From Noviherbaspirillum sp. UKPF54 (GTDB lineage Bacteria > Pseudomonadota > Gammaproteobacteria > Burkholderiales > Burkholderiaceae_D): DNA of 64,000 nt. The translations under genes were made by a program, and so were the position numbers. The stretch spans positions 3,534,001 through 3,598,000 of the forward strand of contig NZ_CP040128.1 of assembly GCF_007874125.1 (NCBI RefSeq), in the 5' to 3' direction. Below the pieces are notes generated by a model, which saw nothing but the letters and a program-made list of their open reading frames with translations, was not told where the DNA came from and searched no databases. Every line of letters starts with the position of its first letter. Positions within the stretch are counted from its first letter, which is position 1. Below, piece after piece: positions 26,758-53,644 of the stretch.

Positions 26758-28361
<1,604 letters not shown>

Positions 28362-43680: not shown

Positions 43681-46194
43681 TCAAGCTTTTTCTTGCGCAA
43701 CGCGATAGCGCTCGTGAGCATAGGCGCAGGTCCACACGTCATGGTGCAGCTGCGATAACAGCAACGGGTCGTCCAGCAGCGCCGCCTTCTGCTTCTCGTC
43801 GAGCGCGTCCGGCCCGGCACGCAGCGCCGTGCGAGCCAGCGCCTCCCGCGCGGCCCGCAACACCGGCGGCAGCCCGGGGCGCGCCATGGCCGCCGCGCAG
43901 GCCAGCGCGTTGACGACCGGATCGACCACCGCGTCGATGAAGCCGGGCAGCTCGCCGGCCGCACGCTGATGCTCGCCGCACGCCCGCAACTCCGGCGGCG
44001 GTGCGCTTTCTTCGGGCGTCACGAACAGCCCGGCGCGTCGCAGGCGCCGCCCCAGCGACACCCGGCTCGACAACACCGACAGCGGCACCGACAGTGCCAG
44101 CGCGCCCGCGATCGGCAAAAGCCAGGGAAGAAACGACGGGTTGAGCCAGTACACCGTGCCGCCCCATGCCAGCCCCAGCAGCGTGTGCAGGCCGTGCTTG
44201 CCGCACGCTTCGCGCCAGGTGGTTTCCGAATCGGCGCGCGGCGGCGATTTCCAGTGCAGGGCCCAGCCGAGAAAGGCGGCCGCCACGAAGCGGGTGTGGA
44301 ACAGCATGCGCACCGGCGCCATCAACATCGACACCAGCATTTCGAGCAAAGCCCCGGCGACCACGCGAGCGCACCCGCCGAACTGGCGCGCGCCGTCGCG
44401 GCAGGCCAGCAGCACGCTCAGTATCTTGGGCAGGAACAGGAGCGTGGCGGTGGCGGAAAAAAGCGCCAGCGCCTTTTCCGGATGCCATTGCGGCCAGATG
44501 GGGAACAGCTGGCGCGGTTCGACGAAATACTGCGGCTCGACCAACGTGTGCAACGCCAGCAGGCCGGTCGACAGCGCCAGGAACAGGAACCACAAGGGCG
44601 CCGACAGGTATGCCATCACGCCGGTGACGAACACGGCGCGATGCACCGGGTGCATGCCGCGGGCGGCGAACAGCCGGAAATTCATCAGGTTGCCATGGCA
44701 CCAGCGCCGGTCGCGCTTGAGTTCGTCGAGCAGGTTGGGCGGCATTTCCTCGTAGCTGCCGTCGAGGTCGTAGGCGATCCACACGCCCCAGCCGGCGCGA
44801 CGCATCAGCGCCGCTTCGACGAAGTCGTGCGACAGGATCTCGCCAGCCAGCGCGCCGCGCCCCGGCAGCGGCGACAACGCGCAGTGGCGCATGAAGGGCG
44901 CGACTCGGATGATCGCGTTATGCCCCCAGTAATGCGACTCGCCCAGCTGCCAGAAATGCAGTCCGGCCGTGAAGAGCGGCCCGTACAGGCGCGTGGCGAA
45001 CTGCTGGATGCGCGCATACAGGGTGTCGCGGCCAGCGGCGCGCGGCGCGGTCTGGATGATGCCGGCGTCCGGGTTGGCTTCCATCAGCCGCACCAGCGTG
45101 GCCAGGCAGGCGCCGCTCATAACGCTGTCGGCGTCGAGCACGATCATGTAGCGATAGTTCTTGCCCCAGCGCCGGCAAAAGTCGTCGATGTTGCCGCTCT
45201 TGCGCTTGACGCGGCGCTTGCGGTGCCGGTAGAAGATGCGGCCGAAACCGCCGACAGCGCGACACAGGCCGGCCCATGCCGCCAGTTCGGCGGCGCGGAT
45301 ATCGCTGCTGCCGCTGTCGCTGAGCACGAAGAAGTCGAAACGCGCCAGCTCGCCGCTGCGCTGCAGCGATTCGTAGGTGGCGCGCAGGCCAGCCATCACC
45401 CGCCCCACGTCCTCGTTACAGATCGGCATCACGATCGCAGTGCGCGCGCCCGGATCGATCGGCGCCCGGTCATTGCGAGCGCGCGAGATGAGATAGCGGT
45501 CGTCGCCGCGCACCAGCGCCATAAATCCCGCCAACGCGGTCCAGAACCCGGCGGACACCCAGCAGAACAGCAGCGCGAAGAGCACCAGCATGGCCGCCTC
45601 GGCCGCCGTCGCGCCCTGATAGGGCAACACCTCGCGCATGAAATAAGCCGCGATCCCGGTTTGCGCGAGCATCAGCGCAAGCAGCGCGACGCGCCGGAGA
45701 TTGCCGTTGTGAGGCGATGCTCCCTGCGGGCCGGGCGCATCGCCCGCGCGCGCAGCTCGCCGCTCATTGCCGCCGGCCCGCAGCCAACGCGCGAGCGGAT
45801 TGAGCGCGCCCCAGGGCTGCGGCACCATCGACGCCCGGTTGACGGGCGGCGCAAACGGCAGCGGTGTGTTCCCATCCTGCCTGGCCACCAGGCGCTGGAC
45901 ATTACCGGGCTGAGAACCTGATTGTGCAGCGGTCCGGGGCGCGCGATATGCCAGCTGCAGGCGCGCTTGCACCGACGCGTGAACGGCGTCGGCATTCGTC
46001 GCATGCGCGGCCTGTGCGCCGGCCAGCGCGCGGTGCAGCGCGGCAAAACCGGCGCGCGGCGCGATGCTTCCAGCGAGTGCGCGGCGTTCATGCGGCGATA
46101 GCGGCAGTCGGCCCAGGTAACGTTCGCACAGCGCCTCGGGGGCGTGCGTTTCGGCCGGCGCGCGCCTCACTCCGGGGGCAAGATGTAGCTCCAC
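43681..46194 (-). CDS. opgH: Osmoregulated periplasmic glucan glucosyltransferase OpgH
   Basis: 837 residues. Inner-membrane glycosyltransferase that polymerises beta-1,2 glucan from UDP-glucose. Several transmembrane helices surround a GT2 domain with [11 protein letters not shown], the DxD motif LDADSVMSG, and WCHGNLMNF as the QxxRW-like region. The GTG at 46194 overlaps opgG by 28 bp. A second GTG at 46170 would overlap the opgG stop by four bases (GTGA) and is an equally plausible start. Partner of OpgG. Confidence 0.95.
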
Positions 46195-47702
46195 GTTTCT
46201 GACAGGGTGTTGTTGGCACTGCGTAGGTAACCGCGCAATTCGACCGGTTTCCGGTCATCGTTGCGCGCCAGCCGCGTCGTCATGCGCCAGCCGCCGCCGG
46301 CGGGGTTGCGGAAGGCATTCACCTCGATGATCCGGGCGTTGGCGTCGGCGCTGACGACCGCCTCGACGCGCGCATCGTCGGGCAGCTTTTTCAGCGCCGG
46401 CCCCTCGAAGTCGACCGACAGCGCGATGCTGTCGTCGGCCTTGCGCAGCCAGCCGTGGCCGCGCCGCGTCTGCGTCGCCCACGCCAGCGGCGGGCGCCGC
46501 TCGGCATCCTTCTGCCACAACAGCCGGTAGGCGATATCGTAGGGCTGCCCCGGCTTGGGAGGCGTATCCGGGACCCAGAACGCGACGACGTTGTCATTGG
46601 TTTCGTCGGGCGTCGGAATCTGGACCAGCTCGACCCGTCCCGCCCCCCAGTCTCCTTGGGGCTCGACCCAGGCGCTGGGGCGCGCTTCGTAATGCGCCTC
46701 CAGGTCTTCGTAGCTGCCGAAGCGCCTGTCACGCTGCATCAGCCCGAAGCCGAGCGGATTGGTCAGCGCAAACGAAGTCACCAGCAGGCGCCGCGGGTTC
46801 ACCAGCGGGCGCCAGATCCATTCGCCGGAGCCGGACTGAATCGACAAGCCGTCCGAGTCGTGCACTTCCGGCCGATAATCCTCGACCTGCGCGCGCTGGT
46901 TCTCGCCGAAGAAATACATGCTGGTGAGCGGCGCGATGCCGAGCTTGGCGACGTTTTCGCGCAGGTAGAGCCGCGCCGTCACATCCATGGCAGTGTCCGC
47001 GCCGGGCTTGAGCGTGAAGCGGTAGGCGCCGGTGACGCGGCGCGAATCGAGCAGCGCGTATACCGTCAGCTCCTTTGCCGTCGCGCCCGGCCGCTCGATC
47101 CAGAACTCGACGAATTGCGGAAACTCCTCGCCGGAATTGAGCGCGGTGTCGACCGCCAGTCCGCGTGCCGACAAGCCGTAGGCCTGGCCCTTGCCGATGG
47201 CGCGGAAATAGCTCGCGCCCAGGAACACCAGGACCTCGTCCTTGTATTTCGGCGTGTTGACCGGATAATGCACGCGAAAGCCGGCAAAGCCCAGCCCGGC
47301 AAGGTCCTTCGCATGGAGGTCGTTGGCGCCGTAGTGGAAGGATTTCGGATCGAAGCGGATTTCGCGCACGCTCTTGCCGGCGACTTCGTGGATCTTGACC
47401 GGGCTGTCGAACGCCATCCCCTGGTGGAAGAACGCCAGCTCGAACGGCAGCTTCGCGTTGCGCCAGTATGTCTTGTCGCGCTCGAAACGGATGTCGCGGT
47501 ACTGGTCGTAGCTGAGACTGGCAAGCTTCTTCGGAATGTTCTTCGGCGGCGCCTTGTAGGAGGAGGCGGCCAGCTGGCGGGCTCTGGCGGCGACATCGTC
47601 GAAGCCGAACGCGGCGGCCACCGCCGGCAGCAGCGACAGCGCCGCGCAGGCGGTCGCCGCGCGCAGGCGCGGCAGCATGAAATTGATTGCGGTTCCTGAC
47701 AT
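46167..47702 (-). CDS. opgG: Periplasmic glucan biosynthesis protein OpgG
   Basis: 511 residues. Signal peptide ([20 protein letters not shown]) followed by the MdoG fold: [25 protein letters not shown] and GVHY-like [15 protein letters not shown], with [10 protein letters not shown] and [13 protein letters not shown]. The protein is needed for release and branching of osmoregulated glucans. The start is uncertain; ATGs at 47747, 47702 and 47678 share the frame, and the last two both give a complete signal peptide. Cotranscribed with opgH by overlap. Confidence 0.93.
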
Positions 47703-47832
47703 TGCGGCCCATTGCACATTCACGTATGGACCATCTTGCCGCGTCATACCGGCGATGGTTTGAGGGCGTGCAATAGGCGCTTACTTAGGCGCGCGCGTTT
47801 GGTTCAAATACAACAGGATGGCCGGCAACCGC

Positions 47833-48444: not shown

Positions 48445-48933
48445 TCAGGCGCGGCTTCCGGCCGCCGATTTGCGCATGGCGCTCTTCACAGTTTTTTCCT
48501 TACCCCTGGCGGCCGTCCTCCTTCCGCGCGCGCCAGCGTTCGACAAGGCCGTCACCGACTGGCACAGGCCATCGATTTCCTCTGTCAGGGCCTTCAGATC
48601 GTCCTGGGTCGGCACGCCAAGATTGCGCAGCGTGCGCGTGAAACGCTCCTCGAACACTTCTTCCATTTTCCCCAGCGGCACGGCTGTCTGCCTGCCGAGA
48701 GTCTCGCTCATCCTGGCGATCGCGCCCGAAATTGTTTGCCCGGCCAATCGCTGCGTGCGCGTTTGCAGGCTGGCGCCTTCCTTCATCAGCCTGGCGAGCA
48801 GGCCGCTGCCCTCGTCGCGCGCGATGGAAAAAGCCCCCAGTCCGGCTTGCCAGATCTGTTGTGCGGAATTGCGCACGGCATCCTTGAAATCAACTTCCTG
48901 GATTTGTGTCGCGTCGTGCAGTTTTTTCGTCAT
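48445..48933 (-). CDS. Phasin (polyhydroxyalkanoate granule-associated, PhaI/PhaF type)
   Basis: 162 residues. VDFKDAVRNSAQQIWQAGLGAF and the following coiled helix are the PhaI/PhaF-type phasin pattern. The C-terminal tail is Lys/Arg/Ala-rich (RGRRTAARGKEKTVKSA), as in PhaF, which links granules to the nucleoid. No PHA synthase is in the window. The ATG at 48933 gives MTKKLHDATQIQ. It lies close to wax-ester genes, so it might coat either PHA or neutral-lipid bodies. Confidence 0.88.
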   Translation of the reverse strand: MTKKLHDATQIQEVDFKDAVRNSAQQIWQAGLGAFSIARDEGSGLLARLMKEGASLQTRTQRLAGQTISGAIARMSETLGRQTAVPLGKMEEVFEERFTRTLRNLGVPTQDDLKALTEEIDGLCQSVTALSNAGARGRRTAARGKEKTVKSAMRKSAAGSRA

Positions 48934-49304
48934 AACTCTTTTCCGTCCGGTTAGTCGAAGTCGAATCCGTGTTTCATATCGATGCGCCAACGTTGCTGTT
49001 TCTGCTGAAGAGACGATGCACCGCGCACGCTCATTCTGCATTGCGCTCCATCAGAGCGCGCCTATCTTGGCTGCCCATGGATTCGTCATAGCCATCAAGC
49101 ATGTCGAACGCGCCCTGCACTGATTCCGGCGCGGATGACCTGGATCAAAGATTTCGGCGGCGCGGAAGAAGAGAGTATGAGTGCGCCGCACCAATCGACG
49201 GGCGCACTTCACTCCGTTTCTCCGCCGCCAGCCACGCCGACGATGCGCAATGATTCCGCATCCGGCAACTGGCGCCTTTCCACATACGACATGAAGGAAT
49301 CGAC
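48934..49304. promoter_or_regulatory. 371-bp divergent region between phasin and repeat-protein genes
   Basis: No gene. It contains an FNR-like box at 49135-49148. TATGAG at 49176-49181 is a possible -10 for the rightward gene. AAGGAATCG (49294-49302) is the repeat-protein ribosome site. The remainder shows no clear structure. Confidence 0.45.
49135..49148. promoter_or_regulatory. FNR/Anr-like box upstream of the repeat protein
   Basis: ATGACCTGGATCAA matches the FNR consensus TTGAT-N4-ATCAA at 8 of 10 positions, the right half-site perfectly. The extended core TGACCTGGATCAAAG is 13 of 15 identical to the box before the hemerythrin gene at 57199. It lies 157 bases before the repeat-protein ATG and 202 bases from the phasin start. 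Oxygen control is inferred. Confidence 0.5.
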
Positions 49305-50012
49305 ATGACGACCAAACACACCAGGGAAAGCAGCGCGCACAAGAACGAGGCAGCAACGGAAGTATCGACCGTCTCCGGAAACGGACAGGCGGGGCAGAAA
49401 GGCTATGCGGCGCACAACATCCAGGAAGGCATCGCCGGGCGTCTTGCCGGGCTCAACAGCATCGAGGCCGATATCGTGGTTCTCGTCAAAAGCACGGTTT
49501 CCGACGCACTCAAGACCGGCGGAGGCGCGGCGACCCAGCTGACGAAAGTGATACACGAAGTGGTCGAAGGCGCCATCGGTGCGGCAGAACAGGTCGGCAC
49601 CGGCCTGACCATGAGCACCAAGAGCGTGGCCAAGGGCATCGTGATGGGTGTGCACGAAGTCGGCGGCGACGTCATCGGCGCCGGCTCGGAAACAGTGCGT
49701 TCGGTGATTCATCAGGCGGCCGGGATCGGCGCCGATATCGGCCTGGTCGCCAAGCGCGCGGTGAACGGCATCATCGAAGGCGTGGCCGAAACCGGCGGCA
49801 ATGTCGGGCAGGCGGCGGCGCGCGCCACCGAGGGAGCCATCGAAGAAGCGGGCCGGATTGGCAGCATGGCGGTGAAAACGGTCAAGGAAGTCCTGATCGG
49901 CGCAAGCGAGAGCGCGGGCGAGGTGCTCGGCACGGTGCTTCCCCACGCGGCAAACCACCATCCTGCGCATCAGCGCGCGGCATCAACGCACGGAAAGACA
50001 CTGCACAGCTGA
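49305..50012 (+). CDS. Uncharacterised Ala/Gly/Val-rich helical repeat protein
   Basis: 235 residues, soluble, no signal peptide. A disordered N-terminus (1-40) is followed by amphipathic units that recur near residues 82, 109, 153 and 193 and share the pattern VxxGIIxGVxExGGxV (for example GIVMGVHEVGGDV and GIIEGVAETGGNV). The unit spacing is about 40 residues. Composition and periodicity resemble surfactant-like lipid-droplet or phasin coats, but I know no family for it. The ATG has AAGGAATCGAC before it. The neighbours are a phasin and wax-ester enzymes. A role on storage granules is a hypothesis. Confidence 0.75.
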   Translation: MTTKHTRESSAHKNEAATEVSTVSGNGQAGQKGYAAHNIQEGIAGRLAGLNSIEADIVVLVKSTVSDALKTGGGAATQLTKVIHEVVEGAIGAAEQVGTGLTMSTKSVAKGIVMGVHEVGGDVIGAGSETVRSVIHQAAGIGADIGLVAKRAVNGIIEGVAETGGNVGQAAARATEGAIEEAGRIGSMAVKTVKEVLIGASESAGEVLGTVLPHAANHHPAHQRAASTHGKTLHS

Positions 50013-50056: not shown

Positions 50057-51562
50057 CTAATCGGGGCGCGCGCCTTGCCGGCCGCGGCGCGACTGCGGAA
50101 CGGCTGTATGCCGCGGCCAGGGCATCAGCAGGGCGCCGATCAGCAGCGCTTCGAATTCGGCGGCGAAACGCCTGACGATCGCCTCCGGGTCGGGCACGCG
50201 CCGCGCGTCGGTCATCACACCGAAATCAACCTTGCCGTCGTAGCTCAGGATGCTGATGCCCATGCCGATGCCGCCCGACTGCGGCACCCAGAACACCTGG
50301 CGCGCGATGCGCCTGCCAGCGAAATAGCGCGCGTCCGGCGCGCCGCGCACATTGGTGACAACGGCGCTGGCATTGGCCGCGAGTGCTTCCAGCGTCCTTT
50401 CCTTGATTACTTCCGGCACCATGCCCATGCTCATCAGGATGCCCAGCGCCACGGTGGGCTGTTGTGAGTGCTTGAGCTCGTCCATGCGCTGTTTCACCGC
50501 GAACACGCGCTCGGTCCTGTCCTCGACGCCGAGCGGCAGGTTCAGGAACACCATGCCGAAATGATTGCCCAGATCGACGAGCGGCCCGGGCGGACGCATG
50601 TTGACCGGCACAAGCGCACGCATGTCGGTGTCATCGACGGTGTCGCCGCGCTCCAACAGATAGCTGCGCAGTGCGCCGGTGACGCAGGCGAGCAGAACGT
50701 CATTGACGGAACAGGCGTACGCTTCGGCGATCGCCTTGACCTCGAACAGCGACAGCGGCTCAGCCCACGCTGCCCGCTTCATCACGCCGAGCGCCCCCTT
50801 GAAGCGCGTCGGCGAATCCGGCTTCATCGCGGCGATATAGGCTGCCTCGCGCGCCAGGTCAATGCCGGTGCGGGCATAGCCGGCGAGCTGCAGCGGATTG
50901 GCGAGCAATTGCCGGCCGATGCCGGCCAGCGACTGGGCCGAGCGCAGCACATCCCCCACCGCTTCCGAGGCCGGCCCGAGAATGCGCTCCCAAGCCGCGC
51001 GCGGCGCGTCCTCGGCGCCGACGTCGCCAGCCGTGTCATGCGGCAGCATGGGGTCGGCATCGGTCATACTGGAAAGCACGTGGATCAGCGCGAAGCCATC
51101 GGCGTAGCAATGATGAATGCGCAGCACCAGCGCGCTGCCGCCGTGCAGGTCGTCAATCAGGTGGAACTGCCACATCGGCTTGCTGCGGTCGAGCGGGGTG
51201 CTGACCAAGTCGCTGACCGCCTCCTCCAGCGCACGCGCGGTGCGCGGCAGCGCGACGTGGCGCACGTGCCAGTCGAGATCGAATCCGGCGTCGTTTTCCC
51301 AGAATGGCTCGCCGCCATGCTCGACCACACGCTGGCGGAAGCGGTGAAAGCACAGCATGCGCGTGGCGATCACGTCCCTGACGCGGCGCAGGTCGAGCCG
51401 CTGCTCGAACATCAGCATGCCGCAAATCATCATCAGGTTGGTGGGCCGGTCCATGCGCAACCACGCGGCGTCGATGTAGGACAGAGGCTCCCTCTCGCTG
51501 GACATCACGCTCATCATCGCGCTCCGCAGTGTTGTCGGTGACGGTTTCAGGCTGGGTTGCAT
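50057..51562 (-). CDS. Wax ester synthase / diacylglycerol acyltransferase
   Basis: 501 residues. Transfers an acyl group from acyl-CoA to fatty alcohols or diacylglycerol. The catalytic motif HHCYADG (HHxxxDG) is near residue 155. PLSYIDAAWLRMDRPTNLM, the N-terminal family block, and the later NDVLLACVTGALRSYL and MRPPGPLVDLGNHFG are typical. The ATG at 51562 has GGAA nearby; an ATG pair at 51517/51514 preceded by GGAG is an alternative. It lies 93 bp after the acyl-CoA reductase gene in the same direction, so the pair should make wax esters. Confidence 0.95.
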   Translation of the reverse strand: MQPSLKPSPTTLRSAMMSVMSSEREPLSYIDAAWLRMDRPTNLMMICGMLMFEQRLDLRRVRDVIATRMLCFHRFRQRVVEHGGEPFWENDAGFDLDWHVRHVALPRTARALEEAVSDLVSTPLDRSKPMWQFHLIDDLHGGSALVLRIHHCYADGFALIHVLSSMTDADPMLPHDTAGDVGAEDAPRAAWERILGPASEAVGDVLRSAQSLAGIGRQLLANPLQLAGYARTGIDLAREAAYIAAMKPDSPTRFKGALGVMKRAAWAEPLSLFEVKAIAEAYACSVNDVLLACVTGALRSYLLERGDTVDDTDMRALVPVNMRPPGPLVDLGNHFGMVFLNLPLGVEDRTERVFAVKQRMDELKHSQQPTVALGILMSMGMVPEVIKERTLEALAANASAVVTNVRGAPDARYFAGRRIARQVFWVPQSGGIGMGISILSYDGKVDFGVMTDARRVPDPEAIVRRFAAEFEALLIGALLMPWPRHTAVPQSRRGRQGARPD

Positions 51563-51655
51563 GGCATTCCGGGTTGAGTGGTTGACGTCACGCGCTTCGG
51601 CTCGAAGCGTTCGCGGCGCTTACGACACGAAGAGCGCTCCTGCGCATGCGCGCCG

Positions 51656-53644
51656 CTAAAAATGCACGCCGCGCAACAGCTGCTGCATGGCGCGCTGCTC
51701 CGCCGACAGCGGGGGCGCCGCTTTCTCGCCTTCCTTGGCTGCCGGCTCCATGTCCGCGAACATGCGAAACGCGGTGTTCAAGATGATCTGGGCCGCATGC
51801 GGCATCACCGTATGCAGCCCTTGACCTGCCAGCCCGATACGGGTCGCAATGCGCACCGGCTTGTCGACAATGGCGCGCACCACGAGATCGGCAGCCTCGT
51901 CCGGCGACAGCGTCGGCACGTCGCGGTAGATGCCGGTAGGCGCGATCATCGGCGTGCGCACCAGCGGCATGTTAATGGTGGTGAACTTGATGCCGACATC
52001 GGCGAATTCGGAGGCGGCGCACAGCGTCCATGCGTCGAGCGCCGCCTTCGACGCCACGTAGGCCGAAAAGCGCGGCGCATTGGTCAGCACGCCGATCGAC
52101 GAGATGTTGATCACCTGTCCCGCGCGCCGCTCCATCATCTTCGGCAGCAGTCCCATCGTCATCCGCAACGCGCCGAAATAATTCAGCTGCATGGTGCGCT
52201 CAAAATCGTGCAGCCGGTCGAAGCTGGCCTCGATCGGCCTGCGGATCGAACGCCCGGCATTGTTGATCAGGATGTCGACGCCATCGTGATTGGCGATGAG
52301 CGTCTGCACGAAGCGCTCGCAATCGGCAGCGTCGGCCAGGTTGACCTGGTAGGTGAGCACGTCGTGGCCGCGCGCCCGGATCGTCTCCCGGGCGGCGGCG
52401 AGCTTGCCCGCGTCGCGCCCGCAGATGAGCGTGATGGCGCCGGCCTCGGCCAGCTTGCGGGCGGTGGCCAGCCCGATGCCGGAGGAGCCGCCGGTCACCA
52501 GCACCGTCTTGCCCTCGACCTGCCCGCGCAGGCTGCGGTCGACGAACAATTCGGGATCGAGGTTGCGCTCCCAGTAATCCCACAGCCGGTCGGCGTATTG
52601 CTCCAGGCGCGGGCAGGCAATGCCGCTGCCTTCGAGCGCCCTGGCGGCCTCGCGGTTGTCGAAGCGGGTCGGATAATTCGCGAACTGCAGGATGCCATCC
52701 GGTAAGCCGAAGTCGCGCATCAGCGCATCCTTCAAACGGCGCACCGGCTTCATGGCCATCACGCCCTTCGCCACGGCATCAGGCACGAACCCGAACAGCG
52801 CGGCATTGATGCGCAAGCTGAGCGCAGGTGCGTGCGCCGAGCGCGCAAAGATGTCGAGCACAGTGCCCACCCGCAGCGGCGCCGGATCGGTCAGGTGAAA
52901 GCATTCACCGCCGGCGCGCGGCTGGTGCGCGATATGGCACATCGCATCGACCACATAGTCGACCGGCACGAGATTGATGCGCCCGCCCTCGATGCCGATG
53001 GCCGGCATCCATTGCGGCAAAAGGCGGCGCAGGCGCTGTATCGGTTTGAAGAAGTAGTACGGGCCGTCGATCTTGTCCATTTCGCCGGTGCGGGAGTCGC
53101 CCACCACCATGCCGGGCCGGTACACGGTCCACGGCACGGCGCAGGCGGTGCGCACGATTTTTTCGGACGCATGCTTGGTGGAGAAATACGGATGATCGAG
53201 ATGCTCGGCTTCGTCGAACATGTCTTCGCGAAACATGCCCTCGTACAGGCCGGCGGCGGCAATCGAGCTCACGTGGTGAAAATGCTTCACCTGCAGCGCA
53301 TTGGCCAGTTCCACCGCATGGCGCGTGCCGTCGACGTTGGTGACGATCTGTGCCTCGGGGGCGGCCTTCAGGTCATAGATCGCCGCCAGATGAAAGAAGT
53401 GGTCGATCCCGCCGGCGAGCGCGGCTGCCTCGCGGGCATCGATGCCAAGGCCGGGGGCGCGCACGTCGCCGCGCACCGGAATCGCGCTGGCCCGTTGCGG
53501 ATTCCAGAACGCAAGCAGGGCGGGCAGTTTGTCCGCGCTGGCCTCGCGCATCAGGAAATACACTTCGCTGCCCTCGCGCTCGAGCAATTTCCTGACGAGC
53601 CGTTTGCCGATGAAGCCGGTCGCTCCGGTAATGAAATACCGCAT
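51656..53644 (-). CDS. Fatty acyl-CoA reductase, two-domain SDR type (Marinobacter FAR-like)
   Basis: 662 residues. It reduces acyl-CoA to fatty alcohol with NADPH. Residues 1-360 are a thioester-reductase-like Rossmann domain (GATGFIGKRLV, HHVSSIAAAGLYEG, YFSTK). Residues 370-640 form a classical SDR domain (GGSSGIGLATARKL, ISSIGVLTNAPRFSAY, YVASK). Length, domain order and motifs such as FERTMQLNYFG match the 661-residue Marinobacter enzyme. The ATG follows AAGGAGGCGCA. It lies upstream of, and reads into, the wax ester synthase. Confidence 0.94.
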   Translation of the reverse strand: MRYFITGATGFIGKRLVRKLLEREGSEVYFLMREASADKLPALLAFWNPQRASAIPVRGDVRAPGLGIDAREAAALAGGIDHFFHLAAIYDLKAAPEAQIVTNVDGTRHAVELANALQVKHFHHVSSIAAAGLYEGMFREDMFDEAEHLDHPYFSTKHASEKIVRTACAVPWTVYRPGMVVGDSRTGEMDKIDGPYYFFKPIQRLRRLLPQWMPAIGIEGGRINLVPVDYVVDAMCHIAHQPRAGGECFHLTDPAPLRVGTVLDIFARSAHAPALSLRINAALFGFVPDAVAKGVMAMKPVRRLKDALMRDFGLPDGILQFANYPTRFDNREAARALEGSGIACPRLEQYADRLWDYWERNLDPELFVDRSLRGQVEGKTVLVTGGSSGIGLATARKLAEAGAITLICGRDAGKLAAARETIRARGHDVLTYQVNLADAADCERFVQTLIANHDGVDILINNAGRSIRRPIEASFDRLHDFERTMQLNYFGALRMTMGLLPKMMERRAGQVINISSIGVLTNAPRFSAYVASKAALDAWTLCAASEFADVGIKFTTINMPLVRTPMIAPTGIYRDVPTLSPDEAADLVVRAIVDKPVRIATRIGLAGQGLHTVMPHAAQIILNTAFRMFADMEPAAKEGEKAAPPLSAEQRAMQQLLRGVHF

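Follow-up and report, generated by a model that had tools for sequence, protein, structure and literature searches.

The 64,000-nucleotide window analysed here (from the soil bacterium Noviherbaspirillum sp. UKPF54, contig NZ_CP040128.1, positions 3,534,001 to 3,598,000) carries two adjacent minus-strand genes whose products, judging from sequence and genomic context, quite probably act together to make wax esters. FAR1 (51656..53644, 662 amino acids (aa)) encodes a two-domain fatty acyl-CoA reductase (FAR) with an N-terminal NAD_binding_4 and a C-terminal adh_short domain, and WS_A (50057..51562, 501 aa) encodes a wax ester synthase/diacylglycerol acyltransferase (WS/DGAT). By gene order, the unit is larger than this pair and includes a gene for a 235-aa repeat protein (ORF235), a phasin gene and, in most relatives, a gene for the acyl-CoA synthetase FadD. 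An earlier sequence-only reading had placed the two enzymes adjacent, co-directional and 93 base pairs (bp) apart in an Oxalobacteraceae-like host, and its coordinates, strand, gap and host assignment were all borne out.

In the NCBIfam profile search, FAR1 matched NF005539/PRK07201 over residues 1–662 with 957 bits (cut-off 549), and its Pfam domains are PF07993 at residues 5–235 and PF00106 at residues 379–568. The motifs of both domains are complete, with TGATGFIG and Y153xxxK in the first and TGGSSGIG, NNAG and Y529xxxK in the second; Y153, K157, Y529, K533, the NNAG residues and the final glycine of both glycine motifs are invariant in a 16-row FAR alignment. The top PDB sequence match of FAR1 is 4u7w, labelled MxaA, which covers the N-terminal part (E = 1.1e-27). 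WS_A matched TIGR02946 over residues 27–474 of 501 (403.3 bits, cut-off 309.95) as well as PF03007 (130.7 bits, cut-off 23.6) and PF06974 (121.4 bits, cut-off 20.7), and its PDB sequence matches are 6chj and 7nxg, named diacylglycerol O-acyltransferase and O-acyltransferase WSD. The active-site motif of WS/DGAT enzymes is HHxxxDG, which WS_A carries as HHCYADG at residue 150. These curated matches and complete motifs agree with the original description of a two-domain FAR next to a WS/DGAT.

The spacer between the two genes (51563..51655, minus strand; 93 bp, 67% GC) contains a predicted hairpin with a 7-bp stem (CGCTTCG-AGC-CGAAGCG) and no T-run. No terminator-like site starting inside the spacer was found by the terminator scan, and two weak sites (51680-51663) overlap the 3′ end of FAR1; the scan is uninformative, with five sites in total and a shuffle mean of 4.2. 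The start of WS_A is uncertain, as alignments with many homologues begin only at residue 8–24 and others at residue 1–2; Met20 may be the start, in which case the gap would be 57 bp longer. The genome to which the window belongs (G000, 4.72 Mb) contains two full-length FARs and four WS/DGAT-like loci, so chance adjacency is unlikely (estimated at 0.004, from 8 pairs × 2 neighbours/~4300 assumed genes), and the same adjacency is found in other genomes of the family, ten in all. The fourth WS/DGAT-like gene of this genome (G000:C1 ~548.9-550.1 kb; L139 6789-8543, minus strand) lacks HHxxxDG, which the other three keep, and it may be non-catalytic or degenerate.

A survey of 245 family genomes (thresholds E ≤ 1e-80 for FAR and E ≤ 1e-15 for WS) identified FAR in 27 and WS in 35. 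A WS homologue was present in all 27 FAR genomes, eight genomes had WS alone, none had FAR alone and 210 had neither; within the genus, the identical 6 of 15 genomes carry both. A same-strand tandem of FAR followed by WS occurs in 10 of the 27 FAR genomes, from five genera (G000, G014, G004, G001, G334, G321, G438, G320, G360 and G339), with match ends separated by −41 to +96 bp. We therefore rejected the idea that the adjacency is unique to this genome. The earlier view of the compact pair as something special likewise did not hold, given this recurrence and the publication of related neighbourhoods of short-chain dehydrogenase/reductase (SDR) and WS/DGAT genes (PMC10351704, cited throughout in excerpt).

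In a tree of 86 FARs, the ten tandem FARs form a single clade with a Shimodaira–Hasegawa-like approximate likelihood ratio test (SH-aLRT) support of 100. Adjoining it is an 11-member clade (SH-aLRT 84), in which 8 of the 11 have a divergent phasin gene and into which the second FAR of the same genome (FAR2, 71% identical to FAR1) falls. The tandem WS genes sit in a 17-row clade A (100/100), and a separate clade B of nine rows holds another WS of G000 (WS_B) together with WS sequences from clusters in Rhodoferax and Ramlibacter. Most simply, the FAR–WS tandem arose once, and the genome counts are therefore not independent events. Close but divergently oriented WS and FAR genes also exist beyond the family, for example 168 bp apart in G055 (L143) and 165 bp apart in a Proteobacteria metagenome-assembled genome (MAG; L070). 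The FAR tree was made by a quick method with SH-aLRT values only, and sequences that were shorter than 600 aa, contained internal stops, or were identical to or contained in another were left out. The WS tree left out sequences shorter than 400 aa or with stops, was reduced from 77 places to 39 by de-duplication and has long branches for L070 and L071. Three FARs whose records bear the names Aeromonas salmonicida, Microvirga alba and Bifidobacterium breve (L050, L053 and L068) group with unexpected relatives in the FAR tree, and their odd places could reflect contamination or transfer.

The module in full reads FAR-WS-(ORF235)-FadD-phasin. The order FAR-WS-FadD-phasin is found in G004 and G001, and FAR-WS-ORF235-FadD-phasin-TPR (TPR, tetratricopeptide repeat) in G320, G321 and G339; FAR-FadD-phasin with WS further on occurs in G380 and G307, WS-FadD-phasin without FAR in G003, and FAR-WS-ORF235-phasin in the window and G014. 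Of the 17 loci with a clade-A WS, 12 have a nearby FadD with 60% or more identity to that of G004, and 12 have a nearby phasin. The window phasin (48445..49041, minus strand, the same as FAR-WS) is a probable inclusion-surface protein; it matched PF05597 with 101.7 bits (cut-off 28.8) and missed the TIGR01837 cut-off (80 bits versus 94.7). Elsewhere in the same genome, a FadD gene at 849421-851109 (~0.85 Mb), 74% identical to the G004 FadD, is directly followed by a phasin gene. Because this pair stands at 0.85 Mb, the FAR-WS-FadD-phasin unit appears to be split in this genome, and the pair is probably its split-off half. Many of the 86 FAR loci have only ~1.5 kb of flank, so the numbers given for WS and phasin are minima; at least 31 of these loci have a phasin gene no more than 1.5 kb from FAR (upstream and divergent in 28). 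A layout common outside the family (for example in Ramlibacter, Rhodoferax and Betaproteobacteria bacterium UKL13-2) is WS-TPR-TetR-patatin-phasin with a divergent FAR. The FAR2 locus retains phasin, patatin, TetR and TPR, and WS_B lies elsewhere, beside a PHA_gran_rgn gene. Near FAR2 there are also a GMC oxidoreductase gene (PF00732) and a putative hydrolase-like gene (L136 4486-7117), both recurrent in relatives, which may act in the turnover of fatty alcohol or wax.

Most of what is known about bacterial wax esters comes from Acinetobacter, Marinobacter and actinobacteria. In the route that we propose, FAR1 would reduce long-chain acyl-CoA to fatty alcohol with NADPH; its Acr1-like C-terminal domain would catalyse the acyl-CoA-to-aldehyde step and its N-terminal domain the aldehyde-to-alcohol step. 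WS_A would then combine this alcohol with another acyl-CoA, yielding the wax ester. The two genes would be co-transcribed, and the wax would accumulate in an inclusion coated by phasin and possibly also by ORF235. By the simplest descent, the FAR-WS-FadD-phasin unit would have formed once in the family following a FAR duplication, its FadD-phasin half would now lie at 0.85 Mb in this genome, and the FAR2-phasin-patatin-TetR-TPR genes plus WS_B would be a second set persisting elsewhere. A single compact unit in Oxalobacteraceae brings the two enzymes together, in many cases along with an acyl-CoA synthetase and a phasin, and their function is therefore testable by deleting one short region.

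ORF235 (49305..50012, plus strand, convergent with WS_A) encodes an amphipathic helix protein with 11/22-residue repeats and is a candidate droplet coat protein. Database searching returned 18 relatives at E ≤ 1e-3, the nearest of which (80%) is named Noviherbaspirillum autotrophicum. Five members of the family gave no Pfam match above cut-off in a search to E ≤ 10, and a PDB profile search gave four weak matches, none of them named a lipid-droplet protein. The gene is present in 9 of the 245 family genomes, every one a FAR genome, and occurs at eight of the 17 loci with a clade-A WS; in eight of the nine carriers (G000, G014, G350, G380, G321, G320, G339 and G482; the exception is G004) it lies 51–329 bp, measured between match ends, from a clade-A WS. 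Additional copies away from any WS exist in G000 and G014. The second G000 copy (G000:C1:4210420-4211058) has a PhaC_N match (4215570) ~4.5 kb away, and a G014 copy and PhaC_N match are similarly spaced (498688 and 503901). A region of 15.6 kb or more that includes an ORF235 paralogue as well as transposase-like open reading frames is present three times in G014 (C2 44829, C17 2764814 and 3252825; L179, L180 and L181); its copies are 100% identical in the stretches compared and reflect either recent duplication or an artefact of assembly.

The core of ORF235 has a hydrophobic period of 3.656–3.666 residues (11/3) in 19 of 19 aligned homologues, with a period power of 17.7–27.2 compared with 6.1–11.9 for the highest of 100 shuffles of each member, and the autocorrelation of its hydrophobicity has maxima at 22 and 44 residues. 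At the level of identity, the repeats of the window protein are barely above shuffles (0.19 at lag 22 and 0.22 at lag 44; shuffle 95%, 0.187). Since the window phasin is also helically periodic (14.6 at 3.70 in its best segment; 5.6–8.1 for five other window proteins), amphipathicity alone is not unique to ORF235. An AlphaFold model (predicted local distance difference test (pLDDT) 68.3, predicted template modelling score (pTM) 0.63) places helices ~22 residues apart in a packed helical repeat, and the solved folds closest to this model are designed helical repeats. ORF235 could thus be read in two ways: as a lipid-surface helix array, by analogy with apolipoproteins and perilipins, or as a soluble helical repeat scaffold, which the AlphaFold model taken alone would favour. 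The linkage to WS would favour a role at the wax inclusion. We tentatively propose, at less than even probability, that ORF235 founds a new bacterial wax-droplet coat family with 22-residue amphipathic repeats, often broken by Gly-Gly, which would act like perilipins and exchangeable apolipoproteins without sequence kinship to them and would have been recruited, with phasin, beside an Oxalobacteraceae clade of wax synthases. If so, the gene for a dedicated surface protein would adjoin that for the core-lipid enzyme, and ORF235 would provide a simple bacterial system for the recognition of neutral-lipid droplets by repeat-helix proteins and a handle on wax storage in engineered strains, RuBisCO carriers included.

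Several observations weigh against the wax-ester route. No FadD gene was found at the window locus (nor at that of G014). The promoter scan, which is uninformative, showed no sigma-70-like promoter. In the FAR genome G015 the WS homologues are all distant (27–29% identical), and G003 and G350 carry a clade-A WS without an adjoining FAR. The TIGR02946 family, named wax ester/triacylglycerol synthase, by that name also makes triacylglycerol, and WS_A might be mainly a DGAT making this lipid, with the FAR1 alcohol used otherwise or FAR1 itself oxidizing alcohols; the GMC oxidoreductase and hydrolase-like genes at the FAR2 locus are compatible with such alcohol turnover. We regard this as improbable, because FAR was never found without a WS homologue among the 245 genomes, and the direct adjacency or overlap of FAR and WS in ten genomes favours one FAR–WS pathway. 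It is hardly credible that the pair is a generic SDR and an acyltransferase that became neighbours by chance. FAR1 does match 241 NCBIfam families at E ≤ 0.001, and nearly all of the 25 matches listed cover the C-terminal domain only, but the full-length NF005539 match far over its cut-off, the 57–58% identity to Marinobacter homologues across both domains and the conservation of the tandem in ten genomes already contradict this explanation.

The coat part of the proposal faces a stronger competitor, in which phasin and ORF235 serve polyhydroxyalkanoate (PHA) granules and lie nearby by chance; this would be compatible with the enzyme part. PHA synthase is present in all 15 genus genomes, which also counts against the wax-inclusion assignment, since the phasin could serve PHA granules, and the name of PF05597 refers to such granules. 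The ORF235 paralogues of G000 and G014 that lie ~4.5 kb from a PhaC_N match point the same way. On the other hand, all nine ORF235 genomes carry FAR, the gene adjoins a clade-A WS in eight of them, and 31 or more of the 86 FAR loci have a phasin gene at most 1.5 kb from FAR. We consider this PHA-granule alternative somewhat unlikely on balance.

The sequence-only reading had also suggested a link from autotrophic carbon to neutral lipid. A RuBisCO large-subunit match (26827-27750, minus strand) is located in the window ~22 kb from WS_A, and a CO2-to-wax route in the strain is possible. RuBisCO was found in 3 of the 15 genus genomes (G000, G014 and G004), all three with the tandem. RuBisCO and FAR are ~29 kb apart on one contig in G014, RuBisCO and the tandem are on different contigs in G004, and the tandem genome G001 (a draft of 420 contigs) gave no RuBisCO match. 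Tracking of RuBisCO by the tandem was not supported in these 15 genomes, which provide a weak test; the functional link between RuBisCO and FAR-WS is weak, and the suggested connection is circumstantial. Downstream of the phasin gene (43681-47747, minus strand) lie MdoG (PF04349) and a likely MdoH gene, both present in G014 as well.

FAR1 had initially been assigned to the type of Maqu_2220, a protein that we take to be ~513 aa long. In the scan of named genomes, which covered the best 80 of 260 relatives, FAR1 was 57–58% identical over residues 1–662 to three Marinobacter MAG proteins, used as proxies for the M. nauticus VT8 protein. A database search with one of these MAG FARs returned matches mostly of 661 aa, one of which is named fatty acyl-CoA reductase (Marinobacter litoralis). 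The identity to the three MAG proteins extends across both SDR domains and speaks against FAR1 resembling generic SDRs only. In the excerpted text of PMC3522743, the 650-aa FCR1 aligns with MAQU_2507 across 639 aa, and in that of PMC10351704, SDR genes near WS/DGAT are compared with MAQU_2507 as reference. Because both sources point to MAQU_2507 as the long homologue, Maqu_2220 was rejected as the reference enzyme and its label is very probably wrong; by sequence, FAR1 is very probably of the MAQU_2507 type. We infer that MAQU_2507 itself falls under NF005539/PRK07201. The functional reading of FAR1 is unharmed by the wrong label.

Comparison with known systems places the window among related neighbourhoods. 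MAQU_2507 supplies the fatty alcohol that goes into wax esters, and SDR genes resembling it are located near WS/DGAT (PMC10351704). The Marinobacter enzyme and FAR1 share a two-domain SDR architecture and an equal length class. The two fully flanked Marinobacter loci had no WS within 10 kb on both sides, no FadD within 6 kb and no phasin within 1.5 kb by the queries used, whereas in the window FAR is followed by WS; the earlier statement that FAR and WS are separate in Marinobacter agrees with this result. Burkholderiales ws/dgat scaffolds from Antarctic and Subantarctic sediments contain a phasin and a PHA-system protein along with SDR genes that share 58.8–59.2% identity with MAQU_2507, and a gammaproteobacterial sediment scaffold has an adjoining SDR-ws/dgat pair (61.9%) (PMC10351704). 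These clusters share MAQU_2507-like SDR genes and phasin with the window; beside these genes the excerpt names an acyl-CoA-binding protein (ACBP) rather than FadD, and it describes no ORF235-like gene or one-clade FAR–WS tandem. FCR1/Rv3391 of M. tuberculosis is a 650-aa, NADPH-dependent reductase of similar length to FAR1 that converts acyl-CoA to aldehyde and alcohol for wax esters; it is 40% identical to MAQU_2507, and its reductase activity is annotated in the C-terminal part (PMC3522743, in excerpt). FAR1 is 41–42% identical to four Mycobacteriaceae loci, and unlike the window, 21 actinobacterial FAR loci showed no WS and no phasin near FAR (0/21) with the queries used.

Helical surface proteins of neutral-lipid droplets include the Rhodococcus MLDS protein, said to share an apolipoprotein motif (PMC5504291, in excerpt), and the perilipins, which have 11-mer repeats (PMC5889406, in excerpt). 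ORF235 resembles them in its 11/22-residue helix repeat; it differs in that the searches, which did not include MLDS itself, revealed no sequence relation to a named family, and in its predicted packed-repeat model. In the open-licence literature, we found no wax ester reports for Oxalobacteraceae and only off-topic titles for Noviherbaspirillum, both weak negatives. Neither the one-clade FAR-WS-FadD-phasin unit of the family nor a wax-synthase-linked protein with 22-residue repeats was found there, ORF235 being nameless and not searched by name. As FAR–WS/DGAT neighbourhoods in Burkholderiales are already in print, at least in the excerpted part of PMC10351704, and the one-clade unit and the WS-linked repeat protein were not found, we conclude that the window holds a known pathway in a distinctive operon and that the new part is ORF235, an uncharacterised linked family worth testing.

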